A stretch of 60,746 nucleotides of DNA. It comes from Prochloraceae cyanobacterium. GTDB lineage: Bacteria > Cyanobacteriota > Cyanobacteriia > Cyanobacteriales > JASJDA01. Each line of letters begins with the position of its first letter. The stretch's first letter is position 1. The notes under the pieces were generated by a model. The model did no database searches and was not told where the DNA came from. It was given only the letters and a program-made list of their open reading frames with translations. Shown piece by piece: positions 14,128 through 60,746 of this stretch. Position numbers and translations under genes: made by a program. The stretch covers positions 1 to 60,746 of the forward strand of contig JASJDA010000016.1 in the NCBI GenBank assembly GCA_030065755.1, written 5' to 3'.

Positions 14128-14129
14128 GG

Positions 14130-14166
14130 GCGAGAGTAGCGATACCCACTGCAGAGCTGCTCTCGC
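14130..14166 (-). repeat. Hairpin with the conserved 15-nt loop (second copy)
   Basis: Read on the minus strand: an 11-bp stem GCGAGAGCAGC paired with GCTACTCTCGC (one wobble) encloses the loop TCTGCAGTGGGTATC. The loop is 13/15 identical to the loop of the hairpin at 10386-10430, while the stem sequence is unrelated. This points to a structured repeat family in which only the loop and the pairing are conserved. Confidence 0.6.
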
Positions 14167-15803: not shown

Positions 15804-15853
15804 AATTCTCAATTCCTTAATTTGTCAACTCGATAGTATTCTTTGGAGGACAC

Positions 15854-17572: not shown

Positions 17573-17727
17573 TCGCTGGTCGCGATCGAGAATTAGTGGC
17601 GAGCGCTACCTTCTGACTTCGAGAGCTCTTGTTCTCGTGCCCCGAGAGAAATATTAGAAATAGGGACAGTCTTCGCCAGTTATAGCTTTTCGGCCTGTGA
17701 GTTTTTTCGTGAGGGGTTAAGATTTAC

Positions 17728-19425: not shown

Positions 19426-19652
19426 AATACTAATTCTGGCGGTCGAGCTAAATCTTCAACTTGTTTTGTCTTTTCGATCGAGGAGCGAAAATAATTTGAA
19501 CTAGTTGAGAACTAATTATCGGCTATTAGTGGTAAAGCGATCCCCAAAATATATATTATTTTACGATCTGCCTGCGATCGCACCCAGGGAAAGGGGGAAA
19601 GGATTGTCCTTTTATTCTTTTTTCAAAGCTGTAATTTTTTTTCGATTTATTT

Positions 19653-20337: not shown

Positions 20338-20346
20338 CGATAAAAA

Positions 20347-21258: not shown

Positions 21259-21264
21259 AGCGAC
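21241..21264 (+). terminator. Hairpin overlapping the Ap4A phosphorylase stop
   Basis: GTCGCTCT pairs perfectly with AGAGCGAC across an 8-nt loop; the TAG stop lies in the 3' part of the loop and stem. Short AT-rich sequence follows. Possible terminator or 3'-end stabiliser. Confidence 0.45.
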
Positions 21265-21350
21265 ACTTATCTTAATTTAGTTAATATAAATTAACTTTAA
21301 TTTATTGAGTTAAGTAGTATATTGTCTTTAGAACAAGTAATTTCAGGCAA

Positions 21351-21380
21351 GGTTCAGCGCCTTTTATATAGCGCTGAACC
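21351..21380. terminator. Perfect 10-bp hairpin between convergent genes
   Basis: GGTTCAGCGC and its exact complement GCGCTGAACC flank a 10-nt AT-rich loop, between the plus-strand Ap4A phosphorylase gene and minus-strand clpC. It has no long T-run, so it may terminate in either direction or be a palindromic repeat. Confidence 0.45.
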
Positions 21381-21527
21381 GAAAGGCTCACTAGTAACTA
21401 TTTTAGGTTATTTTAAGACATATTAAGTATCAAAAATTTTCATGGAGGTAATAAAAAAAACAAAACAAAGAGTATTCAAGAAGCTGAAAAGCAGGCGGGA
21501 TAAGGCTTAAACTCAAGCAATGGGTTA

Positions 21528-21557
21528 AAAAAAAATACTCTCCATAAAGAAGAGTAC
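21528..21557 (-). terminator. Rho-independent terminator of clpC
   Basis: On the minus strand AGTACTCTTC, a short AT loop and GGAGAGTATT are followed directly by a run of T (read from A9 on the plus strand at 21527-21535). This lies about 30-60 bp after the clpC stop and is the classic stem-plus-T-tract arrangement. Confidence 0.7.
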
Positions 21558-21587
21558 TTGACATAAAAACTGATTTGAGTTAACAAA

Positions 21588-23960: not shown

Positions 23961-24327
23961 AAGATTATAAGTATTCCCCAGAGTTAACTTTTCTTTACTT
24001 TCTTATCCCAATTTATCTCTTGCACTAGGGCCGATCGCAATAGGGAAATCCGTAAATTTTCGTGAAGAATGGGAGTGTGGGAAGTGTGGGAAGAGGGGGA
24101 GAGGGGGAGAATAACACACAGCAAACAGCAAACAGCCAAGAGCAAATAGTCGCACAACGTGGAGTAACAGCGGTAGGGCGTACCGTTGAAGCTTGTGAAG
24201 GGATAGGTCTTAGAAGATCCCCGTGAAGCAAGAATCCCACGCGGAGAAACCGTGGGAGCGTCAAAACGATCGAGAATCAGGAGCCGTGCGCTATTATTTT
24301 GATATTTGAAAACAAAATATACAAAAA
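23961..24327. other. Intergenic region with purine-rich tract and transposon relic
   Basis: Between clpC and the UgpC-like ATPase gene, both minus strand. It holds the clpC promoter area, a G/A-rich low-complexity run at about 24066-24112 (GTGTGGGAA and GAGGGGGA units), and the IS200/IS605 omegaRNA-like relic at 24145-24264. The minus-strand open frame 24025-24264 is a shadow of this relic. Confidence 0.6.
24145..24264 (+). mobile_element. IS200/IS605-type right-end / omegaRNA-like relic
   Basis: The sequence ends GAAGCAAGAATCCCACG, then CGGAGAAAC, CGTGGG and AGCGTCAA: a short GC hairpin framed exactly like the 3' ends of TnpB-associated omegaRNAs and IS605-family right ends (GAAGCAAGAATCCC...GGG.GTCAA). 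Upstream (24149-24220) are the GC-rich paired blocks expected of the scaffold (GTCGCACAACGTGG, CGGTAGGGCGTACCG, GGTCTTAGAAGATCC). No tnpA or tnpB coding sequence is adjacent, so this is an orphan relic or a non-autonomous element. Boundaries are approximate. Confidence 0.55.
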
Positions 24328-25407
24328 TTAAACGTTAAGCCGATCGCCACTTTTAACGTCAAACCAGTGAATTAGATTATCTCGAATGGCTAGACTCAAT
24401 TTATCTCCTTCCCAGTTGCGATCGGCAGGTAATAAAGCACGCAACGTAATATCCGACCCTTCAATTCTCACGCTAATTAGATTTTCCTTACCCAATTGTT
24501 CCACCAAATAAACCTTACCTTCAATAGTCTGAGAATCTTCTGGCTTGGCTAGGCGAATATCTTCAGGACGAATACCCAAAACAATATGTGGAGGTACTGC
24601 AGGCATATCTGGCAAAATAATCTGAAAATCACCCAAAATTGCCGCTTTTCCTTCGCATTTCAGAGTGAATAAATTCATTTGAGGACTACCCACGAAACTC
24701 GCTACAAACTCGTTAGCTGGGTGAGTGTAAATTCGGCGAGGTGGATCGAGTTGCTGTACTTGACCTTCATAAAGTACAGCTACCTTACTAGATAGAGTCA
24801 TCGCCTCTGTTTGATCGTGAGTAACGTAGACTACGGGTTTATTTTGCTGTTTAAATAAAAATTTCAATTCTGCCCGCACTTGTTCTCGTAATAAAGCATC
24901 CAAATTACTTAGAGGTTCGTCTAACAAGAATACATCTGGATTTCGCACTAAGGCACGAGCGAGGGCAACTCTCTGCCTTTGTCCCCCAGACATTTTAGCA
25001 GGTTTGCGTTCTAATAATTCTTCTAATCCTAATTTATTCGCTACTTCCAGCACTCTACTCTTAATATCCGACTTAGATATTTTCCGCAGTTTCAAAGCCG
25101 TGCCAATATTTTCTTCTGCTGTCATGTGAGGATAAAGAGCATAACTCTGAAAGACCATCGCAATATTGCGATCGCCTGGTGCAACCCTATTCATATTTTT
25201 GCCACCTATTTCAACCTGCCCTTGACTTGGTTGCTCTAAACCCGCAATTAGACGCAGCAGAGTCGATTTCCCGCATCCTGAAGGACCCAGTAAAGAAAGA
25301 AACTCTCCGTCTTCTACCTCAAGGCTAATATCCCTAACTGGTATTACTTTAGGACTATATTTCTTTTGCAGTTGCTTTAATTCTAATTTAGCCACGGTTT
25401 TTCTCAT
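24328..25407 (-). CDS. ABC importer ATPase, UgpC/MalK family
   Basis: 359-aa ATPase of carbohydrate or glycerol-phosphate importers. Walker A GPSGCGKST (about 40-48), Q-loop MVFQSYALYPHM, signature MSGGQRQRVALARA, Walker B DVFLLDEPLSNLDA and H-loop VYVTHDQTEA are followed by the C-terminal TOBE regulatory domain (from about 240; LGIRPEDIRL). No permease or binding protein is adjacent. It may therefore be a shared ATPase serving several importers, as is common in cyanobacteria (e.g. glucosylglycerol or trehalose uptake). The start follows AAAGAAATA; a GTG four codons in is an alternative. Confidence 0.88.
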   Translation of the reverse strand: MRKTVAKLELKQLQKKYSPKVIPVRDISLEVEDGEFLSLLGPSGCGKSTLLRLIAGLEQPSQGQVEIGGKNMNRVAPGDRNIAMVFQSYALYPHMTAEENIGTALKLRKISKSDIKSRVLEVANKLGLEELLERKPAKMSGGQRQRVALARALVRNPDVFLLDEPLSNLDALLREQVRAELKFLFKQQNKPVVYVTHDQTEAMTLSSKVAVLYEGQVQQLDPPRRIYTHPANEFVASFVGSPQMNLFTLKCEGKAAILGDFQIILPDMPAVPPHIVLGIRPEDIRLAKPEDSQTIEGKVYLVEQLGKENLISVRIEGSDITLRALLPADRNWEGDKLSLAIRDNLIHWFDVKSGDRLNV

Positions 25408-25630
25408 TATTTCTTTATTTTAAAGATATAAGGTCGGCGATCGACTGGGCGGATCTGGCGAAGCCAGCGCCTTCTTTTGTTTTTCATACAGTTTCGGACA
25501 AATTGGAATAAAATATTAAAAATAGTTATACTGAGTAGATATATTAAACTTTCTACCAGTATCTATTAAGTATAGAAGTGTTTTTGAGTAGTATTCTATG
25601 GTAATAAGAGTGTCACTAGACGTAAAGGCG

Positions 25631-25924
25631 ATGGCTACCTCTCCTACTGTAGCGCCGGAACGATCGAGTCAAGTTCTGAGCAAACCATATCCCAACTATA
25701 AAGTAATTGTACTTAATGACGATGTTAATACTTTCAAGCACGTAGCAGAATGCCTGATAAAGTATATTCCTGGCATGACCAGCGATCGCGCTTGGAGTTT
25801 GACAGAACAAGTTCACTATGAAGGGCAAGCCATTGTTTGGGTAGGTCCTCAAGAACAAGCCGAATTATATCACCAACAACTAAACCGTGCTGGTTTGACA
25901 ATGGCTCCTTTGGAGGCTGCGTAA
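25631..25924 (+). CDS. clpS: ClpS adaptor protein
   Basis: 97-aa adaptor that binds the ClpC N-domain and delivers N-degron substrates. The core PNYKVIVLNDDVNTFKHVAE (about residues 21-40) has the conserved NDD and the hydrophobic N-end-rule pocket; HYEGQAIVW and EQAELYHQQL follow. I prefer the ATG at 25631 (MATSPTVAPE), preceded by AAAGG, to the ATG at 25598, because ClpS tails are short and variable. A DUF2103 gene starts 4 bp after its stop. Confidence 0.85.
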   Translation: MATSPTVAPERSSQVLSKPYPNYKVIVLNDDVNTFKHVAECLIKYIPGMTSDRAWSLTEQVHYEGQAIVWVGPQEQAELYHQQLNRAGLTMAPLEAA

Positions 25925-25928
25925 AATA

Positions 25929-26222
25929 ATGGGGGCACCTGGGGACGGTAGATTGGTCTGGAACCACTCTACACATATTTCCGGTCTAATTCCAGTCTTA
26001 GAAAAACTTATTAAAATTAAAGGTATTCAAACAGTTACCCCTGGAGTTATCGGTCGCGTTAGGAGTCATTGTCCTAAGCTAAGATTAAAAATCTCCGTAC
26101 CTATTCGCGGGGGTTATAAAGCGATCGCTCGCCAGGGTAAAACGGTTCAAGAAGTATTTATACTAACAGATTTAACTCAACAAGAATTGGAAGAAGCGAT
26201 CGGTGCCTCCTTGAAAAAGTAA
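25929..26222 (+). CDS. DUF2103 family protein
   Basis: 97-aa conserved cyanobacterial protein starting MGAPGDGRLVWNHSTHISGL, with a central PGVIGRVRSHCPKLRLKISV and a basic patch GGYKAIARQGKTVQEV. DUF2103 members are predicted small metal- or nucleic-acid-binding proteins; no function is established to my knowledge. The 4-bp gap to clpS and the shared strand indicate co-transcription. Confidence 0.75.
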   Translation: MGAPGDGRLVWNHSTHISGLIPVLEKLIKIKGIQTVTPGVIGRVRSHCPKLRLKISVPIRGGYKAIARQGKTVQEVFILTDLTQQELEEAIGASLKK

Positions 26223-26575
26223 TCTAGTTTTCACCATCTTTGAAAAACGAGGACTAATTTTATTAGGTAGGTGGTTTGAATCCCTAACTAAAATTCAATG
26301 TGCGAATGCCTGAATGCGCCACTTTTCAGGTCACATCGATTATTAGCTTTATATATACCTTGTTGTCTTTATTTATAATTCACAACAATTTTATTGTGAC
26401 TAAATATACTTAGGTGTTTTTTAAAGATTCTACTAACCTTGCTAGAAAGCACTGATACATGTTTAATTTGAGTGCTAAATTTTGTTTAACGAGAGGTCGA
26501 TTGCTTTGATAATTTTCAAGCATATATCTTCCTTTAATTATCGTCACGAAATTAAAAGAAAGAGATTAGATAACT
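26223..26575. other. Intergenic region, no supported gene
   Basis: AT-rich spacer after DUF2103. Two weak inverted repeats are visible: ATGTG/CACAT with inner CCTGA/TCAGG at about 26299-26337, and CACAA/TTGTG near 26380-26398. The open frame at 26482-26679 lacks a ribosome-binding site and overlaps the better small frame described next. Confidence 0.4.
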
Positions 26576-26755
26576 ATGAAAGATCGGTTTTATATTTTTG
26601 TAAATTCTGCTTTCTTGACTGCAATTTTAGCAATTTTTTCTTCTATTTTATTGCCAGAAAATACGACAAAAGTATTTAAGGCAATATACTTTGAAGAGAA
26701 CGGTCAAGGTGGTACTACTGCTTCAAAGCTGATAAATTTTGATTTGACTCGATAG
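26576..26755 (+). CDS. Small predicted membrane or secreted protein (59 aa)
   Basis: Short frame starting MKDRFYIFVNSAFLTAILAI, with one strongly hydrophobic segment (about residues 6-27) ending in SILLPEN, then a hydrophilic tail with ENGQGGTTASKL and a Thr-Arg end. An AAAGAGATTAGATAACT sequence precedes the ATG. The signal-anchor-plus-polar-tail layout looks protein-like and is better than the competing frame at 26482. No family recognised; a single-pass small protein is the best description. Confidence 0.4.
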   Translation: MKDRFYIFVNSAFLTAILAIFSSILLPENTTKVFKAIYFEENGQGGTTASKLINFDLTR

Positions 26756-26882
26756 AAGTTAGTATTATTGCTGAGAAGAGGAGTGAAGAATTTTTTAATT
26801 GTGGCAAACGAATTAAAACATCCTTATCTGTAAGAACTCGTGTATAGGTTTTATCGTAAATAAAAAAGCTAACAATCTAACG

Positions 26883-27794
26883 ATGAACCTGCCGATCGTC
26901 TACCATAAAGATTACGTAACGCCCCTACCAGAAGCACATCGCTTCCCCATGCCTAAATTCAAACTATTGTGCGAATTGCTTTTAGCAGAGGGAATAGTCC
27001 AAAAAGAGCGCATCCATCAGCCACTAATTGCTTCTCAAGAATTAATTAACCTAGTTCATACCTCAGAATATATAGAGGCTTACTGTCAAGGCACCCTCGA
27101 TGCCAAAGCTCAAAGGCGGATAGGTTTACCTTGGAGTGAAGCACTAGTGACACGTACTCGTACGGCTGTAGGAGGTACCATATTGGCAGCTAAACTGGCT
27201 TTAAAATATGGTTTGGCCTGCAATACAGCAGGAGGAACACATCACGCCTTTCCTAGCTACGGATCGGGATTTTGTATTTTTAACGATTTCGCGATCGCTG
27301 CTCGCGTGCTGCAAAAATTAGGGATGGTAAAAAAAATTCTCATTGTCGATCTCGACGTACATCAAGGAGATGGAAGCGCCTGGATCTTCAGAGAAGACCC
27401 CAGCGTTTTCACCTTTTCGATGCACTGCGAAGCCAATTTTCCAGGTAAGAAACAAAAAAGCGATTTAGATATTCCCCTACCAATAGGATTAGACGACGAC
27501 GGTTACTTGCAAATATTAGCGAGAAACTTGCCAGACATACTGTCGCAAGTCAAACCAGATATAGTATTTTATGATGCTGGAGTTGATACCCACGTAAGCG
27601 ATCGACTGGGAAAATTAGCTCTGACAAATACAGGGATATATCGCCGCGAAATGCAAGTTTTGAGTACCTGTGTTGCTGCTGGCTATCCCGTTGCTAGCGT
27701 TATTGGTGGGGGATACGCTAAAGATATCGAGGGCTTGGTATACAGACACTCTTTGCTACACAGAGCAGCTAAAGAAGTGTACGAGGGATGTTGA
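26883..27794 (+). CDS. Histone-deacetylase/AcuC-family deacetylase
   Basis: 303-aa zinc amidohydrolase of the arginase/deacetylase fold. Active-site blocks are NTAGGTHHAFPSYGSGFC (tandem His near 120), ILIVDLDVHQGDGSAW (zinc Asp/His near 158), FYDAGVDTHVSD (second zinc Asp) and SVIGGGYAKD. Bacterial members deacetylate acetyl-lysine proteins or small acetylated amines; the substrate here is unknown. Monocistronic on the plus strand, ahead of ndhC by 105 bp. Confidence 0.88.
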   Translation: MNLPIVYHKDYVTPLPEAHRFPMPKFKLLCELLLAEGIVQKERIHQPLIASQELINLVHTSEYIEAYCQGTLDAKAQRRIGLPWSEALVTRTRTAVGGTILAAKLALKYGLACNTAGGTHHAFPSYGSGFCIFNDFAIAARVLQKLGMVKKILIVDLDVHQGDGSAWIFREDPSVFTFSMHCEANFPGKKQKSDLDIPLPIGLDDDGYLQILARNLPDILSQVKPDIVFYDAGVDTHVSDRLGKLALTNTGIYRREMQVLSTCVAAGYPVASVIGGGYAKDIEGLVYRHSLLHRAAKEVYEGC

Positions 27795-27899
27795 ATCCAT
27801 GGATAATTAATTCTAAACAGACAACACACATTCTCTCTATTATAATTGTAAAGAAGTACAAACTAAAGTCCTTATTGACTGAGGGGTAGAGTAAAAAAA

Positions 27900-28262
27900 G
27901 TGTTTGTCCTCAGCGGTTACGAATATCTACTAGGTTTTCTGCTCATTTGCGGATTAGTTCCTATCCTTGCTTTAACAGCAACTAAAATTTTAGGCCCTGG
28001 TGCTGGTGGTCCAGAACGTCGTACTACTTACGAATCTGGGATGGAGCCAATAGGAGGAGCCTGGATTCAATTTAACATTCGCTATTACATGTTTGCCCTA
28101 GTTTTTGTAGTTTTCGATGTAGAAACAGTGTTTTTATATCCTTGGGCAGTTGCCTTCAGTCTTCTGGGTGTATTAGCTTTTGTTGAAGCATTGGTTTTTA
28201 TCGCCATTCTAGTAGTAGCTCTCGTCTACGCTTGGCGCAAAGGCGCTTTGGAATGGTCTTAA
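27900..28262 (+). CDS. ndhC: NAD(P)H-quinone oxidoreductase subunit 3
   Basis: 120-aa membrane subunit of NDH-1, starting at GTG 27900 ([20 protein letters not shown]). Three transmembrane helices are evident (about 5-28, 58-82, 88-112), with the conserved loop [20 protein letters not shown] between the first two. First gene of the ndhC-ndhK-ndhJ operon, which supplies the membrane/hydrophilic-arm junction of the respiratory and cyclic-electron-flow complex in thylakoids. A GAGGGGTAGAG sequence lies upstream. Confidence 0.95.
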
Positions 28263-49687: not shown

Positions 49688-50473
49688 CTATTTGGTAGAA
49701 GCAAGATAACATTTAACTCTGTCAATAGTGCGATAGCCAATGCGCTGATAAATTCGTTCTCCCATAGCGCTAGCTTGAAGAGCCGCTACTTGCGCGCCGC
49801 GATCCAAACCATCGTTACTAACTAAGCGCGTACAAGCTTCTGCCAAACCAAGACCTCTAGCACTAGGGATTGTACCCACCCAGTAAATCCCAGCTACTTG
49901 TTCGGTCATAATCGCCATCGCAGTAGAGGCAGGTCGATCGTCGAGATAGGCTACGTAAATAATCAATTTGGGTGATAATAATCTTTGCGGGACACTGAAA
50001 ATAGCCTCTGTCTGTTCTTTGGGAAAGCCAATAGGGGCGTATGCTTCACTATTTATATGACACACGTCTAAAATTTCCTCTTCCTTTGTTGCTAGTCGAA
50101 TTTTGACATTTGCGGGCAACATTGGCGATTCTACTTTTTTCTCTAAAACCATCTCTGGACTATCAAAAACTTGCTTCATTTCTGCCGATCGAGCTGCCGC
50201 TTCTAAGTCTCGATCTTGCTTTCCGTAAGTCAAAATAGTAAAGTCCCGATTTAGAGTTTGGAAAAAAGCCCTGGCTTTATCGATGACTTCTGGTGCGGGA
50301 AGATCGGCATCAAGGCGGATTACAGAATTCATAAATATAGGAAAGGTGGTGCTTCCAGCGACAAACAGAAGTCCCTCTCGCTCAATCAGTTGACTTAATT
50401 TCTGCCAACGTCCGAATTCTCGCATTGCTTCGACAAAGTTGGCATACACCAGTGTATTTAATAAAGAATTCAA
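49688..50473 (-). CDS. GNAT-type N-acetyltransferase
   Basis: 261-aa protein. The N-terminal 120 residues are divergent (LNTLVYANFVEAMREFGRWQ); the C-terminal half is a GNAT domain with IYWVGTIPSARGLGLAEACT (acetyl-CoA loop) and ERIYQRIGYRTIDRVKCYL. Substrate unknown. Convergent with rbcS and divergent from the RiPP precursor-like gene, with 157 bp between starts, so it is probably not part of that cluster, although a tailoring acetyltransferase cannot be excluded. Confidence 0.8.
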   Translation of the reverse strand: MNSLLNTLVYANFVEAMREFGRWQKLSQLIEREGLLFVAGSTTFPIFMNSVIRLDADLPAPEVIDKARAFFQTLNRDFTILTYGKQDRDLEAAARSAEMKQVFDSPEMVLEKKVESPMLPANVKIRLATKEEEILDVCHINSEAYAPIGFPKEQTEAIFSVPQRLLSPKLIIYVAYLDDRPASTAMAIMTEQVAGIYWVGTIPSARGLGLAEACTRLVSNDGLDRGAQVAALQASAMGERIYQRIGYRTIDRVKCYLASTK

Positions 50474-50630
50474 GTTGTTTTTTTTTCCTTAGTTATGAGT
50501 TTTCTATTGTAGATCGTAGATTCTTTCTAGGAGGCATTAAAGCTAGCATTGCCCCTTTATTCATTTTAAAAATACAACCCTAAGACATGATAAATTTACT
50601 TGAGTCAATAATCTTAGAGATAAAAATAAA

Positions 50631-51002
50631 ATGCCACTAGTTCAAAATTGGCAAGAGTTATCGCGAATAGCATCTCAGGAAATAGCCAAAGTATGGCTAT
50701 CCTTAGATAGAAATGAAATTTCTACTTTAGATTCAGAGCAAGTACAAGCTAATCTCATCCGCTCTATCTTAGATAGATTTCAACAAGAGGCAAGCTATAC
50801 TCTTCCAGAAGGGATTAATCCTAGAGTCGATCGAAATGTTACCTATTGGAAAGTAGAGGCTATGGCAGATGGGAGGAGTCTCATCTGGATAATTCCCCTC
50901 CCTGATAAGCCTCCTTCCCTCCCACAACAAGAGTTGTCAGATTGGGCAGATGGGACTCTTGCGGAAGCGCCTCTAACTCTTGGACTACAGGGTTGCTGCT
51001 AG
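50631..51002 (+). CDS. Putative TOMM (RiPP) precursor with NHLP-type leader
   Basis: 123-aa protein. Residues about 8-108 follow the nitrile-hydratase-leader pattern: helical start (ELSRIASQEIAKVWLSL), LPEGINPRV near 58-66, a hydrophobic strand SLIWIIPLPDKPPSLPQQ and a terminal ELSDWADG. The Ala-Asp-Gly at 106-108 replaces the usual double-glycine cleavage motif. The remaining 15-residue core TLAEAPLTLGLQGCC has its only cysteines as the last two residues, the natural substrates of the YcaO cyclodehydratase encoded 366 bp downstream on the same strand. The core also contains two Thr and no Ser. Leader longer than many NHLP leaders. The start follows AGAGATAAAAATAAA. The precursor role is inference from architecture plus context. 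Confidence 0.65.
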   Translation: MPLVQNWQELSRIASQEIAKVWLSLDRNEISTLDSEQVQANLIRSILDRFQQEASYTLPEGINPRVDRNVTYWKVEAMADGRSLIWIIPLPDKPPSLPQQELSDWADGTLAEAPLTLGLQGCC

Positions 51003-51055
51003 TCTTCCTCTAACCATACTTTTGTTAGTTTTGGGTGACCAAACTTAATATATTA

Positions 51056-51261
51056 GCGGGACTTAGGCAATTTTTCTGGCTGAAAAGGGCTAAAAACCTT
51101 TCTAGATAAAAGGAATACATCGATGGGGTTCAAATCCACTCTTCTACGTAGATTCAAGTTTTGTGTCCCCTCGCCTTTGGCTCAGGGAAGCTGACCGAAG
51201 TCAAACAACTGATAGATAAAGGTTTTAGCTCTTTTTATCTCTATTTTTGCCAAAGCCCCGC
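51056..51261. mobile_element. 206-bp MITE-like element between the precursor and ycaO
   Basis: The left end GCGGGACTTAGGCAA and the right end, reverse-complemented, GCGGGGCTTTGGCAA begin inverted repeats that extend, imperfectly, about 55 bp inward (GGCTAAAAACCTTTCTA against GAGCTAAAACCTTTATCTA). TA flanks both ends (51054-51055, 51262-51263), the signature of Tc1/mariner-IS630-type transposition. No coding capacity. It separates the putative RiPP precursor gene from its modifying enzymes. Confidence 0.65.
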
Positions 51262-51367
51262 TATTGGCAGTTTCCAACTTTTGGAGAAAGCTTTTTGTGT
51301 ACTGCCGCATAATTTTTCAACAAAGAGCTTTTGAAACGTAACAAGTTTATTGGAAGCATAAACAATA

Positions 51368-53620
51368 ATGCTCAACAAGCCGAAATTTAAAAGTTGTTTC
51401 CAAATTGGAATTGTAGAGTCATTAGGTATATTTTTGCTATCGGAAACAGATAGCTTTTTACTTAGAGGGAATGTTTATGAAAAGATTGCACCTTTAATAG
51501 ATGGCGCTCGTACCGTTAATGAGATAGTTAATTTGCTAGAAAAACAAGCATCTGCTGCTGAAATTTACTATGCACTGATGCAAATGGAACAGAATGGCTA
51601 TATTGTTGAAACTCAGGAGGGTCTACAACCAACTATCAATGCTTTTTGTGAAAGTTTGAATGTTGCTCCACAAGAGGCGTTCCAACGTTGGCAAACAATT
51701 AAAGTAGCAGTTGATTCCTTTAGTCTTGTTCCTAGAGAAAAATTTATCTATAATCTTGAATCTCTGAATATTCAAGTATCTAATGAGGGAAATATAGAGA
51801 TAGTTTTGACCGATGACTATCTTCAAGACGATCTGGAGGCGTTTAATCAAAAAGCGTTACAATCCCAACGTCCTTGGATGCTCGTTAAACCAGTAGGAAA
51901 GATAATTTGGATTGGACCTATATTTATTCCTGGAAAAACAGGATGTTGGGAATGTCTGGCTCAACGTTTGCGAACTAATCGCCCCGTCGAACAATTTATT
52001 CAGAAAAGTTACAAAACTGCAACTTCTTTAACCAAGTCTTTTTCTGCTCTTCCTTTCACATTACAAACTGGACTAAATTTAGCAGCAACAGAAGTTGCTA
52101 AGTGGATTATTCAGGGAGAAAATCAACAGCTTGAAGGTCAAATAGTTACTTTTGATACGATTTCTCTAGAGACGCAAAATCATATACTTGTTAGACGTCC
52201 TCAGTGTCCTTGCTGTGGAAAAAAACAAGAAGTGTTGGCAAACAGGGAACCTACTCCTGTTGTGCTAAACAGCAGAAAGAAGACTCTTAATAATGATGGC
52301 GGATACCGTTTTTTGTCATCGGAAGAGACTCTTAAGAAATACGAACACCATATTAGCCCCATTACTGGCGTTGTCCGATGGCTGAAAAAAATTCCCCAGA
52401 AAGAGCCTCCCTTGATTCATACTTACATCGCAAGTCATCATTTCGCCACAATGTTTGACGATCTATATTCTTTACGACAAAATGTTTGCGGTAGAAGTAG
52501 TGGGAAAGGGAAGACAGATACTCAAGCAAAGACAAGTGGTTTATGTGAAGCAATTGAGAGATATTCTGGAGTATTTCAAGAAGATGAAATTAGGAGAAAA
52601 GGCACTTACCAACAGATGAGTGATGTGGCAATTCATCCCAATGAGTGTATGAATTTTAGCCAAAGACAGTACGAAAATAGGCAACAATGGAACGCTAAAG
52701 CCGATCTAAATCACTGGATTCCAGAACCTTTCGACGAAACTAGAGAAATTGATTGGACACCTGTTTGGTCTTTAACGAATCAAACATTCAAGTATTTGCC
52801 AACAGCTTATTGTTACTACGGTTATCCCAACAGCGATCGACCTGATTGTTGGGCCAATTCCAATGGTTGTTCTGCTGGTAACACCTTAGAAGAAGCTATT
52901 CTCCAAGGGTTTTTAGAGTTGGTAGAGCGAGATAGTGTTGCTCTGTGGTGGTACAATTGCCTCAAAAAACCAGAGGTTAATTTAGAAAGTTTTGACGATC
53001 CCTATTTTCAAGCTCTGAAAGATTATTATCAGACCCTCAACCGCGAGTTTTGGGTTCTAGATTTAACCAGTGATTTTAATATTCCCGTGTTTGGTGCGAT
53101 TTCTAGAAGAACAGATAGCAAAATAGAAGATATCATCTTTGGCTTCGGCGCTCATTTTAATCCTTATATTGCCATACTCCGAGCCTTGACAGAGTTAAAT
53201 CAAGTACTACCTTCTGTTTCATATATAAATCCCGATCGCAGTACTCGCTATGAATCTTTTTCAAAGTCAGCACTAAATTGGTGGAAAACAGCAACTATTC
53301 GGAATCAAGATTATTTAGTTCCAAACTCTAATACTTCTCTCACAAACTGTTCCGATCTTCCTCATCTTTGGCAAGAAGATTTGCTAGAAGACGTGACAAT
53401 TTGTTTAGAGCTTATTAAAGAAAAAGGTATGGAAATGTTAATTTTAGATCAAACTCGTCCCGATATAGGTTTAAATGTGGTTAAAGTTATTGTACCTGGA
53501 ATGCGACATTACTGGAGAAGACTGGGATCGGGGCGACTTTACGAGGTTCCTGTTAAATTAGGTTGGCTCAAAGAATCTAATCCTGAAAACCAATTAAATC
53601 CCCTTGCTTTCATATATTAA
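51368..53620 (+). CDS. YcaO-type TOMM cyclodehydratase fused to RRE/ocin-ThiF-like domain
   Basis: 750-aa enzyme that would form azoline rings on Cys/Thr of the precursor core with ATP. Residues 1-85 (KFKSCFQIGIVESLGIFLLS, GNVYEKIAPLIDGARTVNEI) are the leader-binding winged-helix seen in LynD/TruD-type enzymes. An E1-like region follows with two Cys pairs, CWEC and CPCC, likely zinc ligands. The YcaO domain (from about 330) has SGLCEAIERYSG and LQGFLELVERDSVALWWYN, with its conserved ATP/Mg-binding Glu residues. The end, NPLAFIY, lacks the canonical PxPxP tail. Ten bases separate its stop from the dehydrogenase start. The start is supported by family alignment more than by its ribosome-binding site. 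Confidence 0.88.
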   Translation: MLNKPKFKSCFQIGIVESLGIFLLSETDSFLLRGNVYEKIAPLIDGARTVNEIVNLLEKQASAAEIYYALMQMEQNGYIVETQEGLQPTINAFCESLNVAPQEAFQRWQTIKVAVDSFSLVPREKFIYNLESLNIQVSNEGNIEIVLTDDYLQDDLEAFNQKALQSQRPWMLVKPVGKIIWIGPIFIPGKTGCWECLAQRLRTNRPVEQFIQKSYKTATSLTKSFSALPFTLQTGLNLAATEVAKWIIQGENQQLEGQIVTFDTISLETQNHILVRRPQCPCCGKKQEVLANREPTPVVLNSRKKTLNNDGGYRFLSSEETLKKYEHHISPITGVVRWLKKIPQKEPPLIHTYIASHHFATMFDDLYSLRQNVCGRSSGKGKTDTQAKTSGLCEAIERYSGVFQEDEIRRKGTYQQMSDVAIHPNECMNFSQRQYENRQQWNAKADLNHWIPEPFDETREIDWTPVWSLTNQTFKYLPTAYCYYGYPNSDRPDCWANSNGCSAGNTLEEAILQGFLELVERDSVALWWYNCLKKPEVNLESFDDPYFQALKDYYQTLNREFWVLDLTSDFNIPVFGAISRRTDSKIEDIIFGFGAHFNPYIAILRALTELNQVLPSVSYINPDRSTRYESFSKSALNWWKTATIRNQDYLVPNSNTSLTNCSDLPHLWQEDLLEDVTICLELIKEKGMEMLILDQTRPDIGLNVVKVIVPGMRHYWRRLGSGRLYEVPVKLGWLKESNPENQLNPLAFIY

Positions 53621-53629
53621 CTAAATAAA

Positions 53630-55045
53630 ATGAAAAATGATTTGATAATTTCTTTTAGAGCGGATATATCTTCGATCGAACAAACAGAAAATGAGATTGT
53701 CCTAAAAAATAAGAATAATAGTTTAAATCTTCAGCATATATCTCCTGGAATATTAGAGGCGATCGCTGTTCTTTGTGCTGAGGGTGAGACTGAAGAAAAA
53801 TTAAGTCAGCTTGTATTAGAAAAAGACGGACATTATGGGTTGTCTGAATTTTATTATTATCTTGAAACATTTATTAAAATAGGGTTAATTTGCCATACTG
53901 TTAAGTTTGATGAAGGTACCCTAGCAACCCTTCTATCTAACTCCTCAAATTACAAATTTCAATTTAAAAAAGTAGTCTTAGATAAAAACTATATTCTTTC
54001 TCGTTTTGCTTATTGCCATAGAGAAGACGATCGATTAATTCTAGAATCTCCCCTATCTTTTGGAAAGATTATTTTAAATAATTGGCGAAGTTCTGCGATC
54101 GTAACAGAATTAGCAAAACCAGTAAATTGCCTTCAGTTATGTCAGCAAATTTCCGATCTTACAGAGGAGACGATACAATTGTTCTTGAGCCTCTTATTGA
54201 GTGCTGATATGCTTGCTGAAGCAGCAGGTGAGAACAAAGAAATACAAACAGAAAATAGTCCTCTTGCTCAATGGGAATTTCAGGATTTACTCTTCCATTC
54301 CCAAATTAGAACAGGAAGACAAAATAAACCCATTGGCAGAACCTATCGCTTTTGGAAACAAATCCCACAACTTCCTGTCGTTAAACCCAAAGTATCTGAG
54401 GAAATAATTGATTTATACAAACCAGAGTTTAATGAACAGCAAGCAACAGATCCTTATTTTACAACTGTTCTAGAATCTAGACGATCGATAAGAAGCTTTG
54501 GCAAGCAACCCATAACAGATCGACAACTGGGAGAATTTCTTTATCGTTCGGCTAGAGTCAAAAAACTCACAAAAACTGATATAGAAGAACTGAGTAATCG
54601 TCCTTATCCCTCCGCAGGTGCTTGTTACGAATTGGAATTTTATTTAGCGATAAACAGTTGTCAAAATATTGCTTCAGGTTTTTATCACTATTGTCCTCAA
54701 GAGCATCAACTCGGTCGCATTTCTGGGCTCGACGATCCTGTTAAAGCTCTTTTAGAAGAAGCTAGGATAAATAATCCTCAAAAATCTGTTCCTCAAATTC
54801 TGATTATCCTAGCAGCACGCTTTCAAAGAGCGAGTTGGTACTATGAGTCGATCGCTTATGCTGGAATACTCAAAAATGTTGGTGCTGTTTTCCAAACCAT
54901 GTATCTCGTAGCCACCGCATTAGGACTCGCACCTTGCGCTCTTGGTTACGGTAACTCAGATTTATTTGCAGCCGCTTCTGGAACCGACTACTATGCGGAA
55001 ACATCTGTTGGAGAATTTATCTTAGGTAGCAAACCTGAAAACTAA
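53630..55045 (+). CDS. SagB/ThcOx-type azoline dehydrogenase
   Basis: 471-aa FMN oxidoreductase expected to oxidise the azolines made by the upstream YcaO enzyme to azoles. The N-terminal half (1-230) consists of winged-helix-like segments typical of ThcOx (ISPGILEAIAVLCAEGETEE, LSEFYYYLETFIKIGLICH). The C-terminal nitroreductase domain has ESRRSIRSFGKQPITDRQL (FMN phosphate contacts), SAGACYELEFYLAIN, GFYHYCPQEHQLGRI and GAVFQTMYLVATALGLAPCA. It starts 10 bp after the ycaO stop, so the two are translated from one message. No transporter or peptidase gene follows before 55440. Confidence 0.87.
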   Translation: MKNDLIISFRADISSIEQTENEIVLKNKNNSLNLQHISPGILEAIAVLCAEGETEEKLSQLVLEKDGHYGLSEFYYYLETFIKIGLICHTVKFDEGTLATLLSNSSNYKFQFKKVVLDKNYILSRFAYCHREDDRLILESPLSFGKIILNNWRSSAIVTELAKPVNCLQLCQQISDLTEETIQLFLSLLLSADMLAEAAGENKEIQTENSPLAQWEFQDLLFHSQIRTGRQNKPIGRTYRFWKQIPQLPVVKPKVSEEIIDLYKPEFNEQQATDPYFTTVLESRRSIRSFGKQPITDRQLGEFLYRSARVKKLTKTDIEELSNRPYPSAGACYELEFYLAINSCQNIASGFYHYCPQEHQLGRISGLDDPVKALLEEARINNPQKSVPQILIILAARFQRASWYYESIAYAGILKNVGAVFQTMYLVATALGLAPCALGYGNSDLFAAASGTDYYAETSVGEFILGSKPEN

Positions 55046-55439
55046 GCTTTAATTTTTTTCAAGTATTTTAGGGCTGTTGATATTGAAATAATCAAATACT
55101 GTATCGTGAAAGTGATAGAATAACAACGTCCACAAAGCTGACTCACCTAGATGGAATGCTCTCTGTTTGGTCATCACAAGACTCAGTGATATTTTAAGAC
55201 AGCAGGCACAAAGTTAGCATCGAAAAGAAAATCAATCCGCCAAGAAATGATAACAAACTCAGATAAAACTTCGGTTAGTTGTCAGCTATTTTAATTTGAT
55301 TTGGATTAATAGTCGCGACCAAAATGCTTCTGCTCAAAGGGTAGGTTGTACTTCGCTCTTTAGAGTTGAGAGGATGGCTTATTGACTTAATCTACACTTT
55401 GCTAATGCACTATCAGAGAGATAATAAGGAGAATAAGCC
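55046..55439. other. Intergenic region after the TOMM genes
   Basis: 394-bp spacer. A minus-strand frame of about 41 codons (roughly 55041-55166, starting MTKQRAFHLGESALWTLLFY) looks protein-like and might be the end of a decayed transposase, but has no ribosome-binding site. No further precursor-like peptide was found on the plus strand. The kinase promoter lies toward the right end. Confidence 0.4.
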
Positions 55440-58400
55440 ATGCTGAGGATTTCCAGCTACCAGACTGGGGAAAAAATTTATGAGAGCTCCAATACCTTAG
55501 TTTACCGTGCCTATCAAAAAAAGAATCGACAGCCTGTTATTCTCAAAATATTCCGAGAAAGATATCCTTCGCCAGAGAAAATAGCTTGGTATAAGCGCGA
55601 ATACGAAATTACCAAAAACTTGCAGATCGATGGAGTAATCAATGTCTACAGTCTAGAAAATATCCAAAATCTTTGGGTGATGGTACTTGAAGATTTTGGG
55701 GGTGAGTCTTTAGACAAGTTAATATCAAGGGGGCAATTCTCTCTAAGTAAGTTTTTTCCTTTTGCCATTATTCGCATTGTTGAGATTTTGGATCAAGTGC
55801 ATGACCAACAGATTATGCATAAGGATATCAATCCTTCTAACATTATTTTAAATCCAACAACTAGAGAACTTAAACTCATCGATTTTGGTATTTCGACTGT
55901 TCTCTCACGGGAAAACCCAGCGTTATGCAATCCCAATAAATTAGAGGGAACTTTAGCCTATATCTCTCCAGAACAAACTGGAAGAATGAATCGAGCGATC
56001 GACTATCGGACTGATTTTTATTCCTTAGGCGTTACTTTTTATCACTTATTAACAGGAAAATTACCTTTTCCCACCAGCGATCCCCTTGAGTTGCTCCATT
56101 GCCATATTGCTAAACAAGCAATTTCTCCTCATCAAATCAAATCAGATATTCCGCAGGTACTCTCTGAGATCGTTATGAAGCTGATGGCGAAAAATGCTGA
56201 AGATCGCTACCAGTCAGCCTATGGATTAAAAAAAGATCTAGAAAAGTGTCTACACCAATGGGAGCAGAAACAGACCATTGAATCATTTCCTTTAGGCAGA
56301 GAAGATTCATCTCATCAGTTCCAAGTTTCTCAAAAGTTATATGGACGAGAAGAAGAAATTAATCTTTTATTAGCTGCTTTTGCACGTGTGAGCCAGGGCT
56401 CTAAAGAAATGATGCTAGTTTCTGGCTATTCCGGTATCGGCAAATCTGCCTTAGTCAAAGAAGTTTATAAACCAATTACCGAGCAACGGGGCTACTTTAT
56501 TTCTGGTAAGTTCGATCGACTCCAAAAAGATATTCCTTTTGATTCCCTAGTGCAAGCCTTTCGCTCCTTAATTAGCCAACTGCTTACTGAGAGTTACGAT
56601 CGGCTCCATACCTGGCGAACAAAAATTTTAGCAGCTCTCGGTGTTAATGGTCAGGTAATCCTGGAAGTCATTCCAGAACTAGAACTCATTATTGGCAGCC
56701 AGCCATCTGTAGCGGAATTAGAATCGATAGAAGCTCAAAATCGCTTTCATCTAGTATTTCAGAATTTTATCAGGGTTTTTGCCCGACCAGAACACCCCTT
56801 AGTCTTATTTGTCGACGATTTACAGTGGGCAGATAGAGCTTCTCTTAAAGCGATCGAGCTGTTAATGAGCGAAGCAGATAGCTCTTATCTTTTTTTGATT
56901 GGTGCATATAGAAATAATGAAGTTAGTAAGATCCATCCCTTAATGTTGACCCTGGATAAGATCGAGCGAGCTGGAGGAATCGTCCATAATATTTCCTTGA
57001 AGCCTTTAAAATTATCTTATATTAATCAATTAGTTAGTGATACCCTCAACATAGAATTAGAGACTGCTCGCCCGTTAACAGAATTACTCCAGAAAAAAAC
57101 CTATGGCAATCCTTTCTTTATTAATGAGTTTTTAAAGTCTCTATATAGCGAAGAACTGATACAATTTAACTCGCGAAAAGGCTCTTGGCAGTGGGACTTA
57201 GCAAAGATTCAAGAGCATAATATCACTGACAATGTGGTCGAATTAATGACCAGCAAGATACAAAAGTTAGAACAAACAACACAAAGTCTTTTGCAATTAG
57301 CAGCTTGTATTGGCAATAAGTTTGAACTCCAAACCTTAGCCATTGTCTCAGAAACATCACCTCAACAAGCTGCTGCTAACTTATGGCAAGCGATCGCGCA
57401 AGGTTTAATTATACCGCTTAGCGATACCTACAAGCTGATAGAAATGGATGTCGAGGGATTGGCTGAGAAGATCGCGGTTGAATATAAATTTACCCACGAT
57501 CGCATTCAGCAAGCAGCCTATTCCCTAATTATCAAAACAGAGAAACCAACTGTCCATTGGCAGGTAGGACAACTGCTGTTGAAAAATACACCACCAGCAA
57601 AACAAGAGCCAAAAATATTTGATATTGTTAATCAATTAAATATAGGTAGGAAGTTAATTAAGCAACAGACGCAGCAAGATGAACTAGCTCGATTAAACCT
57701 AATCGCAGGTAAAAAAGCAAAGGCATCCACAGCCTATGAAACTGCCTTCCAATACTTCAAGATTGGTTTGGAACTGTTAGCAGAAGATAGCTGGCAACAG
57801 CAGTATGAATTCACCTTGGAACTTTATAACGAAGTTGCAGAAGCGGCATATCTCAGTGCTAACTTCGATCTATTAGAGAGTTTGACTGAGGTTGTACGGC
57901 AACAAGCTAAAACTTTGCTGGACAAAGTGAAAACCTATCAAATCAAGATACAAGCCTGTATAGCTGAGAACCAGCTATATTCAGCAGTAAAGATTGGGCT
58001 AGAAATTCTGAAACTTTTGGGGATTACCTTTCCTGAAAAACCAAGTCAGTCAGATGTTCTACAAACTTTGAAAGAAAGCAAATTGGTTTTGGCAGACAAA
58101 AGCCTGGGGGATTTAATAAATCTGCCAAAGATGACCGATCCTTTTAAGTTGGCAGCAATGAGAATTATAAGCTCTATTCATTCTGCTGCATATATGAGTA
58201 TTCCTGAACTCGACTCAATTCTTGTGTGTAACTTAGTCAATTTGTCTGTTAAATATGGCAATGCTCCTTCCTCTGTTATTGGTTACGTCAATTACGGAAT
58301 CAATCTTATTGCCATAGCGGAGGAATTTGAAACTGGTTATGAATTTGGTCAACTCGCTTTACGCCTATCATCTCGCTTACCGAGTAATAGATATAAAGCG

Positions 58401-60746
58401 ATGGTATTATTCGAGATTTATAACTACTTAATTCACTCGAAGGAACATCTTAAGGGAAGCTTACAATTGCAAGAGACTTATCAAATCGGGCTGGAAATTG
58501 GAGATATAGAATATGCTGCTTATTCTGCGATTAATTACTGTTTTTATTTGTATTATCTTGGCTCGAAACTTTCTGAATCAGAAACTCAAATAGCAGCTTA
58601 CGGCAAAGCGATCTCCAAACTAAACCAAGAGGTAGCTCTTAATTATCAGAAAATTTTTCATCAAACAGTTTTAAACTTATTGGGCAAATCAGAAAATCCT
58701 CAACTATTAATTGGCGATATCTATGACGAGCGCCAAATTACACCTGTTTATTTATCAAATCATGTCACTGGAGCTTTTTTCCTATATTTGTGCAAACTTA
58801 TACTCTGTAATCTGTTTCAGGATTATTCTCAAGCTATTATCAATGCAACTGAGACAGAAAAATATTCGGAGGGAGTTGCCGGATCTCCATATATTCCTAT
58901 CTTATACTTTTATTCCTCTATTGCTTATCTAGGTGGGCTTAATAATGTCTCAACCGAAGAAAAAGAGTTTATTCTCGCCAAAGTAACTTTCAACCAAGAA
59001 AAAATAAAGCGATTGGCATCTTCTGCCCCTATGAATTATCTCCACAAATTCTACTTAGTTGAAGCCGAACGCGCCCGCGTTCTGTGTCAATATAAAGATG
59101 CCAGAGAATATTACGATCGAGCCATAACCCTAGCCCACGAAAACGAATATCTCAACGAAGAAGCCCTAGCCTACGAACTAGCAGGCAGATTTTACCTAGC
59201 TAGAGGTCAAAACCACGTTGCTCGCCATTACCTACAAGATGCCCACTATGCCTATCAGCGCTGGGGAGCAATAGCTAAAGTTAAAGATTTAGAAGACCGA
59301 TATCCGCAGTTTTTAGCAACAGCCTCAAAAGATACTCTTCAAACTCGCTTACCTTCTACAATTACCAGCGAGGATGAAACTCCCGCTGAGGTTTTCGATT
59401 TTCACAGCATTTTAAGAGCTTCGCAAGCAATTTCTAGCGAAATTTTACTAGATAGATTGCTAGATAAATTAATTAAAATTGTTATTGAAAATGCTGGCGC
59501 TCAAACTGGGGTTCTTCTTTTAGAAAAAAAAGGTAATCTATTTATAGAAATAAAGGCGAATGTAGATCGAGAAGAGCTGATAGTAAGTAGATATAATTCA
59601 GTTGCAAATAGTGAAAAATTGCCCCTATCTATAATAAATTACGTACAAAGAACCAAAGAAAATCTAGTTTTAGAAGATGCTATTACTGACAGCAGATTTA
59701 CTAAAGATACTTATATAGCTAAAAAACAACCCAAATCTATTTTATGTACGCCGATCGTCGATCGAGGTAAATTAATTGGTCTGCTTTACTTAGAAAATAA
59801 TTTAACTACAGGTGCCTTTACTAGCGATCGTCTAGAAGTGTTAAAAATTCTCTCCTCTCAAGCAGCAATTTCCATTCAAAACGCCCAATTATTCGGAAAC
59901 TTGAAACAAGCAGAAGCAGAGGTGCGAGAAAGCGAGAGAAGAATAGCTCAATTTCTAGAAGCCCTACCAGTCGGCGTATTTATTGTTAATGCTCAAGGTA
60001 AACCATATTACGCCAATCATACTGCAAAAGAGGTACTAGGCAAGGAAATCATAACCTCAGACACATTCGAGAAATTACAAGAGGAATATCCAGCCTATTT
60101 AGCAGGAACCGATCGATTGTACCCAAGGGAACAAGGAGCGATCGTAAAAGCCTTGAAGGGTCAAAGATCAACTGTTGACGATATGGAGATTCGCGCTCCT
60201 GACAAGACTATACCCTTAGAAGTTTCAGCTACCCCTATTTATGACGAGCAGGGGCAAATTAACTATGCCATAGCTGCCTTTCAAGATATTACCGAGCGCA
60301 AAAAAGCAGAAGCAGAAAGAATCGAGTTTACTAAACAACTCGAAGTCAAAAATGTCGCCTTGGAGCAAGCACAACAAGCTTTAACTAACTACAACATCGT
60401 CCTAGAACAAACAGTTCGAGAGCGTACAAAAGAACTATCACACACCATTGAAGTTCTCAAAGCCACTCAAGGAGAACTGCAAATAGAAAACGCTCTGCTC
60501 AGAAGCGATTCCGATAGTCAAACCTCTACGTTTGACTATCAACTGGGGGGAAGTTTGCCCATGGATGCTCCTACTTACGTGGTGCGCTCGGCCGATCGTC
60601 AACTTTACCAAGCTCTTAAACGGGGGGAGTTTTGCTATATCCTCAATGCAAGGCAAATGGGCAAATCCAGTTTGATGGTGCAAATGTTTCATCGTCTTGA
60701 AAACGAAGGATTTTACACTGCAGCAATTGACCTAACAAGCATTGGC
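55440..60746 (+). CDS. Giant Ser/Thr kinase - AAA - TPR - GAF - PAS - AAA-like signalling protein (partial, 3' end beyond window)
   Basis: Open for 1769 codons to the window edge; AAGGAGAATAAGCC precedes the ATG. Order of domains: Ser/Thr kinase (about 8-270; VILKIF, HKDINPSN, DFGIS, SPEQTGRMN); AAA ATPase (about 298-560; YGREEEI, Walker A SGYSGIGKSALV, Walker B LVLFVDDLQWAD); a helical TPR-like region (about 600-1280); GAF (about 1318-1487); PAS (about 1500-1615, ending AFQDITERKKAE); coiled coil (about 1620-1690). After this a histidine-kinase core is normal, but here FDYQLGGSLPMDAPTYVV and LNARQMGKSSLMVQM start an AAA-like P-loop domain usually found at protein N-termini. Cytosolic sensor and signal integrator; inputs unknown. 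Confidence 0.88.
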   Translation, partial: MLRISSYQTGEKIYESSNTLVYRAYQKKNRQPVILKIFRERYPSPEKIAWYKREYEITKNLQIDGVINVYSLENIQNLWVMVLEDFGGESLDKLISRGQFSLSKFFPFAIIRIVEILDQVHDQQIMHKDINPSNIILNPTTRELKLIDFGISTVLSRENPALCNPNKLEGTLAYISPEQTGRMNRAIDYRTDFYSLGVTFYHLLTGKLPFPTSDPLELLHCHIAKQAISPHQIKSDIPQVLSEIVMKLMAKNAEDRYQSAYGLKKDLEKCLHQWEQKQTIESFPLGREDSSHQFQVSQKLYGREEEINLLLAAFARVSQGSKEMMLVSGYSGIGKSALVKEVYKPITEQRGYFISGKFDRLQKDIPFDSLVQAFRSLISQLLTESYDRLHTWRTKILAALGVNGQVILEVIPELELIIGSQPSVAELESIEAQNRFHLVFQNFIRVFARPEHPLVLFVDDLQWADRASLKAIELLMSEADSSYLFLIGAYRNNEVSKIHPLMLTLDKIERAGGIVHNISLKPLKLSYINQLVSDTLNIELETARPLTELLQKKTYGNPFFINEFLKSLYSEELIQFNSRKGSWQWDLAKIQEHNITDNVVELMTSKIQKLEQTTQSLLQLAACIGNKFELQTLAIVSETSPQQAAANLWQAIAQGLIIPLSDTYKLIEMDVEGLAEKIAVEYKFTHDRIQQAAYSLIIKTEKPTVHWQVGQLLLKNTPPAKQEPKIFDIVNQLNIGRKLIKQQTQQDELARLNLIAGKKAKASTAYETAFQYFKIGLELLAEDSWQQQYEFTLELYNEVAEAAYLSANFDLLESLTEVVRQQAKTLLDKVKTYQIKIQACIAENQLYSAVKIGLEILKLLGITFPEKPSQSDVLQTLKESKLVLADKSLGDLINLPKMTDPFKLAAMRIISSIHSAAYMSIPELDSILVCNLVNLSVKYGNAPSSVIGYVNYGINLIAIAEEFETGYEFGQLALRLSSRLPSNRYKAMVLFEIYNYLIHSKEHLKGSLQLQETYQIGLEIGDIEYAAYSAINYCFYLYYLGSKLSESETQIAAYGKAISKLNQEVALNYQKIFHQTVLNLLGKSENPQLLIGDIYDERQITPVYLSNHVTGAFFLYLCKLILCNLFQDYSQAIINATETEKYSEGVAGSPYIPILYFYSSIAYLGGLNNVSTEEKEFILAKVTFNQEKIKRLASSAPMNYLHKFYLVEAERARVLCQYKDAREYYDRAITLAHENEYLNEEALAYELAGRFYLARGQNHVARHYLQDAHYAYQRWGAIAKVKDLEDRYPQFLATASKDTLQTRLPSTITSEDETPAEVFDFHSILRASQAISSEILLDRLLDKLIKIVIENAGAQTGVLLLEKKGNLFIEIKANVDREELIVSRYNSVANSEKLPLSIINYVQRTKENLVLEDAITDSRFTKDTYIAKKQPKSILCTPIVDRGKLIGLLYLENNLTTGAFTSDRLEVLKILSSQAAISIQNAQLFGNLKQAEAEVRESERRIAQFLEALPVGVFIVNAQGKPYYANHTAKEVLGKEIITSDTFEKLQEEYPAYLAGTDRLYPREQGAIVKALKGQRSTVDDMEIRAPDKTIPLEVSATPIYDEQGQINYAIAAFQDITERKKAEAERIEFTKQLEVKNVALEQAQQALTNYNIVLEQTVRERTKELSHTIEVLKATQGELQIENALLRSDSDSQTSTFDYQLGGSLPMDAPTYVVRSADRQLYQALKRGEFCYILNARQMGKSSLMVQMFHRLENEGFYTAAIDLTSIG

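Follow-up and report, generated by a model that had tools for sequence, protein, structure and literature searches.

Described Systems Related to the Locus

YcaO enzymes cyclise cysteine, serine, and threonine residues, and azole-containing RiPPs typically have cores that are rich in these three residues. The NHLP-Burk precursors (TIGR03795, the BMA_0021/BMA_0022 family) were described for Burkholderia by Haft, Basu and Mitchell in 2010 and possess a leader of 108 and a suffix of 11 residues (PMC2887384). According to the sections of that paper drawn on here, one member of each precursor pair ends in Cys-Cys or Cys, the genes adjoin that of a large Ser/Thr kinase, and the species concerned lack a close homologue of the NHLM transporters (PMC2887384). 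For cyanobacteria, nostatin A has been reported as an azole-containing proteusin of Nostoc (PMC11583998), and a survey of marine Synechococcus reported YcaO/SagB clusters with precursors featuring a Gly-Gly motif (PMC10783134). In the analysis by Cox 2015, the NHLP YcaOs grouped with those of the cyanobactins, and, as stated in the part of the study considered, such precursors were not identified with the parameters applied (PMC4603692).

Gene Content and Genomic Setting

The window, i.e., the whole stretch of 60,746 bp analysed in this study, represents the complete contig C228, part of a cyanobacterial draft genome of 8.46 Mb. Genes for RbcX and the RuBisCO small subunit, as well as rbcL and a CcmM-like gene recognised by eye, are located upstream of the locus. 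Between positions 49688 and 60746, the ORFs of at least 60 aa outside longer genes comprise a GNAT-like gene, the precursor gene, two enzyme genes, and a kinase gene, and neither a leader peptidase nor an exporter gene was found in this interval. Elsewhere in the window, ABC-transporter matches of a general type were obtained at 15905–17536 (+) and 24751–25404 (−), far under the cut-off for NHLM exporters. The GNAT-like gene (49688–50473, −), featuring Pfam matches below cut-off, sits between rbcS and the precursor gene and was rejected as a pathway member, the GNAT query having no match at E ≤ 1e-5 in the 79 related loci described below.

The precursor gene (50631–51002, +) encodes a protein of 123 aa, composed of an NHLP-like folded domain (approximately residues 1–106) and a short tail (TLAEAPLTLGLQGCC) ending in Gly-Cys-Cys, with the motif ADG at residues 106–108. 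Cys122 and Cys123 (codons at 50994–50999, +, as read from the sequence) are the sole cysteines of the whole protein and the predicted heterocyclisation site or sites, Cys122 being the stronger candidate. A fused TOMM cyclodehydratase of 750 aa (51368–53620, +) matched TIGR03604 with 272.4 bits (cut-off 219.25) and TIGR03882 with 176.6 bits (cut-off 36.9), and comprises winged-helix/RRE-like (residues 8–80), ocin-ThiF (168–336), and YcaO (378–713) domains, the YcaO domain and the N-terminal winged helix also being matched by Pfam. Nine bases separate its stop at 53620 from the start at 53630 of a SagB/ThcOx-type FMN azoline dehydrogenase of 471 aa (53630–55045, +), which matched TIGR03605 with 172 bits (cut-off 78.4) and the Pfam models ThcOx and HTH_57. 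By sequence, the closest solved structures are MusD, TruD, and LynD for the cyclodehydratase and CyaGox (5lq4 and 8pz5) for the dehydrogenase.

The gene set of the original prediction, namely a 123-aa ORF, a fused RRE/ocin-ThiF/YcaO enzyme, and a SagB-type enzyme on the same strand, was recovered in full, and its assignment to a TOMM-type locus is borne out by both enzymes exceeding the curated cut-offs. Regarding the extent of the locus, the three genes are as claimed, but the earlier description omitted the kinase gene at 55440, which probably belongs to the locus. This gene (55440–60746, +) encodes a large Ser/Thr kinase–AAA_16–GAF–PAS protein and is truncated where the window, and with it the contig, ends.

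Relation of the Precursor to NHLP Leaders and Nitrile Hydratase

Searched alone, the 123-aa protein yielded no NCBIfam match at E ≤ 10, in a search whose HMMER filters drop most weak matches, and no Pfam model above cut-off. Its AlphaFold model reached a mean pLDDT of 87, with a loose end at residues 121–123 (about 44), and a Foldseek search returned no significant fold match. A profile of 16 homologues searched against the PDB sequences detected the NHLP 8tb1 (E 1.1e-11) and the nitrile hydratase alpha subunit 1v29 (E 2.3e-11), and also matched the NHLPs on contig C204 of the same genome (E 1.6e-8 and 1.7e-6). The models TIGR03793, TIGR04351 (TOMM_nitrile_2), nitrile hydratase alpha, and NF038399 (Os1348 NHLP clan) were each matched by 12 of the 16 aligned homologues at E ≤ 1, the best TIGR03793 match having an E of 8.2e-14. 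The window's protein itself matched neither TIGR04351 nor NF038399, for which the homologue scores displayed are below cut-off.

Among the precursors of five relatives, four scored between 42.2 and 48.8 bits against TIGR03793 (cut-off 50.9), and the fifth, a 201-aa precursor on contig C422, matched neither TIGR03793 nor TIGR03795. The window's protein did not match TIGR03795 (cut-off 41 bits) either, the best of these five relatives reaching 29 bits. Judged by sequence comparison, the 123-aa protein is related to NHLP leaders yet lies outside the NCBIfam models; the predicted NHLP-type leader is supported by the homologue profile, but not by the single sequence. The newer Pfam model PF27793 appears as a precomputed label on 50 of the 94 database homologues, but is missing from the window's protein and its two close homologues; it postdates the Pfam copy searched and was not among the matches of four labelled proteins there.

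These two close homologues, found besides the window's protein in the database, are 78% and 72% identical to it over the full length, and both end in GCC, which argues that the 123-aa ORF is more than a chance reading frame and agrees with the predicted retention of the Cys pair. Alignments revealed an 11-residue insertion after approximately residue 24 in the window's protein relative to most relatives.

Related Loci in Cyanobacteria and Beyond

An alignment of 11 YcaO proteins was used as a query and identified 424 encoding stretches in named genomes, the best 80 of which were kept and represent 79 loci. Parts of the cassette recur across cyanobacteria and in three Parabeggiatoa MAGs; among the culturable relatives, Trichormus sp. 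NMC-1 (L149) has the cassette. Within the 79 best loci, a precursor was found in 50, a kinase in 51, an amidohydrolase of the PF04909 type in 58, and a SagB-type enzyme in 14. A quick, midpoint-rooted YcaO tree, in which the window's branch is long and its exact placement therefore unsure, divided the loci into 26 on the window's side, of which 14 have SagB, 13 the amidohydrolase, and 10 the kinase, and 53 on the other side, of which 45 have the amidohydrolase, 41 the kinase, and none SagB. In the first pass, 29 of the 79 loci lacked a precursor, and four of these later yielded one (L086 and L098 by eye, L116, and L119, which equals L159); short contigs among the loci make missing precursors weak evidence. 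Some relatives carry precursor pairs, e.g., L147 and L093; the window shows one precursor ORF.

The genome of the window harbours a second cassette (L157, contig C422 of G000, 8001–28000; locus positions 8095–19280) with a YcaO gene, an amidohydrolase gene, the 201-aa precursor ending in FIPLATT, and a kinase gene. The PF04909 amidohydrolases could act on a C-terminal azoline or azole carboxylate.

Several further observations were made in the related loci. Two small genes of the L157 cassette resemble, by eye, a toxin–antitoxin pair, and the nearest solved structures by sequence for its amidohydrolase (L157:11106–12188) are PtmU3 (6omp), other amidohydrolases, and ACMSD-type decarboxylases. 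A flavin amine oxidase gene is situated between the precursor and YcaO genes in L037 (8584–10197) and L040 (10207–11895), where the precursors end in PACC and PNCC; the L037 enzyme was tested and is weakly VioA-like, and its L040 counterpart was judged by eye. In L117 (7561–7932), L125 (13706–14077), and L135 (13932–14300), a different protein of 122–123 aa ending in PIV or PLV precedes the amidohydrolase, and an NHLP-type precursor was not found at these three loci. Contig C204 of the window's genome (L051, 10798–12502) carries two canonical NHLP precursor genes and, on the opposite strand, a 205-aa YcaO-like N-terminal ORF, as well as an NHLM-type exporter over its cut-off. A second precursor copy in genome G090 (L038:9991–10284) features a stop codon within the match. 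The contig of L082, filed as a Gracilibacteria MAG, clusters with Hydrococcus in the YcaO tree and is possibly a misbinned cyanobacterial contig.

At the genome level, 13 genomes gave a precursor match at E ≤ 0.006, a threshold of our own choosing, and 12 of them have YcaO, compared to 46 of the 148 genomes searched. The single exception, G123, owes its match to an 80-aa frame with two stops. At E ≤ 1, 66 of the 148 genomes gave matches, mostly weak, partial, and in long or broken frames, and a wide occurrence of homologues without YcaO was rejected, in line with the co-occurrence expected from the original prediction.

The Kinase Neighbour

Kinase homologues scoring above 300 bits were found in 51 of the 79 best loci versus approximately 0.03 expected per 20 kb, the latter value being derived from 125 matches in approximately 81 Mb of ten genomes, in which split genes were counted repeatedly, so that it represents an upper estimate. 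The window's kinase matched TIGR03903 (TOMM_kin_cyc) with 150.9 bits, under the cut-off of 705.75, and all five kinases tested matched this model below cut-off. Paralogues of the kinase family cover the kinase part at 12 places in the window's own genome. The output domains vary among the relatives, and the kinase of L147 has a guanylate cyclase domain, corresponding to the layout in the name of TIGR03903. The kinase–AAA–GAF–PAS protein is likely a regulator of the locus or a receiver for its product.

A Conserved Cys, Ser, or Thr at the C-Terminus

To describe the tails, 58 locus-derived precursors were compared, i.e., 58 profile hits less two that are cut by the locus end (L108 and L112) plus two recognised by eye (L086 and L098); L116 and the precursor of the same-genus genome G001 (377 aa, ending in PYIPLSSS; L159 = L119) stand outside this set. 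At least one of the final two residues was Cys, Ser, or Thr in 56 of the 58, compared to 107 of 354 control ORFs from these loci. Per position, these residues were counted 49 times at −1, 44 times at −2, 26 times at −3, and 11 times at −4, the excess being confined to the last three positions. As the last residue, they were found in 66 of 354 other ORFs of at least 200 aa, 0 of 80 YcaO, 15 of 56 amidohydrolase, 8 of 49 kinase, and 5 of 14 SagB sequences. Both exceptions among the 58 are Gly-Gly NHLPs of a single locus (L136).

The same rule held for 91 of 93 database homologues (94 less P0001, which is the window's protein), a set that partly overlaps with the 79 loci, some genes being the same, and that was collected with a search profile (A3) including the tails. 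The exceptions are P0092, which is named partial, and P0093, which was read as a fragment. In this set, the penultimate residue was Cys, Ser, or Thr in 90 of 93 proteins (Ser 31, Thr 31, Cys 28), and the last residue was free (20 each of Cys and Leu, 12 of Ile, 8 each of Gly and Phe, and further residues). In the alignment, homologues share 21–30% identity with the window's protein. Since relatedness inflates simple probabilities, we rely on sequence clusters and on the exchange of Cys, Ser, and Thr at one place: the clusters in which every member obeyed the last-two rule numbered 55 of 58 at 70% identity, 32 of 35 at 50%, and 22 of 24 at 40%.

A bias of the search profile was considered as the source of the tail rule and rejected, with 55 of 57 precursors following the rule when the last 20 residues had been removed from the profile sequences; with this profile, L107 was lost and L086 and L116 were gained.

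The two sides of the YcaO tree differ in the position that is kept. On the window's side, 22 of 24 precursors have one of the three residues at the penultimate position, the exceptions being those of L136. On the opposite side, 31 of 34 precursors have one as the last residue and 22 of 34 as the penultimate one, often following a YIP motif. The precursor of G120, ending in TTLC, lies on the window's side and breaks the penultimate rule; the SagB-side precursors of G064 and of contig C9 of G146 end in ICA, i.e., with a penultimate Cys.

The very end of the protein is likely the target of the azole enzymes. Heterocyclisation at the tail is the best explanation for the rule, because the three residues that YcaO enzymes cyclise interchange at one place beside YcaO genes, and selection apparently maintains a single heterocyclisable residue at the extreme end of a folded protein.

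Predicted Modification and Fate of the Product

It is quite probable that the locus represents a TOMM-type pathway in which the predicted enzymes convert the penultimate Cys of the NHLP-like Gly-Cys-Cys protein, and possibly its final Cys as well, into a thiazole. In the order proposed here, the NHLP-like folded domain would dock onto the RRE-like winged helix at the N-terminus of the fused enzyme, whose YcaO domain would, with ATP, close the side chain of Cys122 onto the carbonyl of the preceding Gly to give a thiazoline. The SagB/ThcOx enzyme would then oxidise the thiazoline to a thiazole, corresponding to a mass change of about −20 Da, which would become −40 Da should Cys123 be converted as well. 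The product would probably be either the whole protein with an azole-capped C-terminus or a form trimmed by an enzyme encoded elsewhere, and the neighbouring kinase–AAA–GAF–PAS protein would probably sense or control it.

CcaB, an NHLP-type YcaO, leaves C-terminal Cys, Ser, or Thr unmodified according to the part of the report drawn on (PMC10676384), and this precedent, by analogy, speaks against the last Cys as a substrate. As the preference for the penultimate position also fits the need for one following residue, Cys122 appears to be the safer site. The bis-thiazole proposed in the original prediction becomes one of two options, given that precedent, the retained penultimate Cys, Ser, or Thr, and a last residue that is often Leu, Ile, Phe, or Gly.

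A conventional division into leader and core, in which cleavage after ADG would release the tail for export as a thiazole peptide of 15 residues, shares the chemistry of the preferred explanation and differs in the fate of the product, so that the two overlap; we consider this fate rather unlikely. ADG at residues 106–108 resembles a Gly-Gly-type site of NHLPs, and NHLM-type exporters are encoded elsewhere in the genome (contigs C204 and C441). The alignments speak against the proposed cleavage at ADG, as the stretch is variable: it is absent in P0003, and relatives feature WTRG, WAEG, and WVEE at this place, which leaves the 15-residue core unproven. In addition, the tails following this stretch differ in length and sequence among the homologues except for the last residues, a Gly-Gly or Ala-Gly cleavage motif before the core failed the conservation test (alignments A1 and A3), and neither the 49688–60746 interval nor the window's ABC matches supplied a peptidase or an exporter of the NHLM kind. 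Uncut retention of the modified protein is possible, as suggested by the lack of a conserved cleavage motif and of a nearby peptidase or exporter gene; the latter points either to retention or to trimming by a distant enzyme. For a related NHLP system that lacks a Gly-Gly site, the available part of the report suggests a full-length precursor in cell lysates (PMC12636437).

It is improbable that the true substrate is another peptide encoded elsewhere, e.g., by the Gly-Gly NHLP genes on contig C204, and that the 123-aa protein serves as a helper or partner of the enzyme. Two canonical NHLPs (TIGR03793) and two NHLM-type exporters encoded in the genome do exceed the cut-offs of their respective models, and TOMM precursors are sometimes distant from their enzymes, as noted in the portion of Haft 2010 consulted (PMC2887384). 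However, 90 of 93 homologues have Cys, Ser, or Thr, each about equally often, at one fixed place of the tail, which a helper role does not require, and C204 has a YcaO-like ORF of its own. Terminal Cys-Cys pairs are able to bind metals or form disulfides, but a metal- or redox-active end beside a chance or decayed YcaO/SagB pair is highly improbable, as Ser and Thr replace Cys at the same place in relatives, an exchange that keeps heterocyclisation and hardly metal or disulfide chemistry, and as both enzymes are intact ORFs in a cassette that recurs.

Under the preferred reading, i.e., heterocyclisation at Cys122 and possibly Cys123, the YcaO enzyme would work with one following residue or none, unlike CcaB as described in the part of the report considered (PMC10676384), and an azole-capped protein would be tied to a sensor kinase. 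Moreover, orphan cyanobacterial YcaO genes gain a substrate rule, namely a neighbouring protein whose last two residues include Cys, Ser, or Thr. As a tentative extension, which we regard as doubtful, cyanobacteria may possess an extensive class of azole pathways, as yet undescribed in function, in which YcaO modifies only the last one to three residues of an uncut, folded NHLP protein; its product would be an azole-capped signalling protein read intracellularly by a dedicated kinase–AAA–GAF sensor, and not a secreted antibiotic.

Comparison with Known Systems

An account of the cyanobacterial family with its C-terminal site, its tail rule, and its companion genes was not found in the open-licence literature searched. 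Already known are NHLP-Burk Cys-Cys precursors beside a kinase, nostatin A, and the PF27793 label on many of the homologues. The claim that such a product would be undescribed is not supported as it stands, since NHLP-Burk precursors ending in Cys-Cys or Cys were published in 2010, as can be seen from the sections drawn on (PMC2887384).

The cyanobactins, including muscoride, provide the closest solved relatives of both enzymes (MusD, TruD, and LynD; CyaGox), but the locus described here is devoid of a PatA/PatG-type protease gene, and its precursor is NHLP-related. The best PatA match within the window's own genome reached 79.3 bits versus a cut-off of 421.05. With nostatin A, the locus shares the cyanobacterial host, an NHLP leader, and a YcaO cyclodehydratase together with an oxidase for azoles (PMC11583998). 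As far as the consulted part of that report describes it, nostatin A features a 30-residue core rich in Cys, Ser, and Thr, a LanM-like enzyme, an epimerase, and transporters, whereas the window's protein has its only cysteines in the last two residues.

With NHLP-Burk, as presented in the sections used here, the locus has in common a long NHLP-like leader with a short suffix, a Cys-Cys end, a fused cyclodehydratase, and a large Ser/Thr kinase. It differs in its cyanobacterial host, in precursors that stay below the TIGR03795 cut-off where scored, in a single precursor instead of a tandem or fused pair, in the SagB/ThcOx enzyme on the window's side of the YcaO tree, and in the amidohydrolase of many relatives. 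Moreover, in the database set, tails with Ser or Thr are as common as those with Cys, which sets the cyanobacterial precursors apart from NHLP-Burk as described in these sections.
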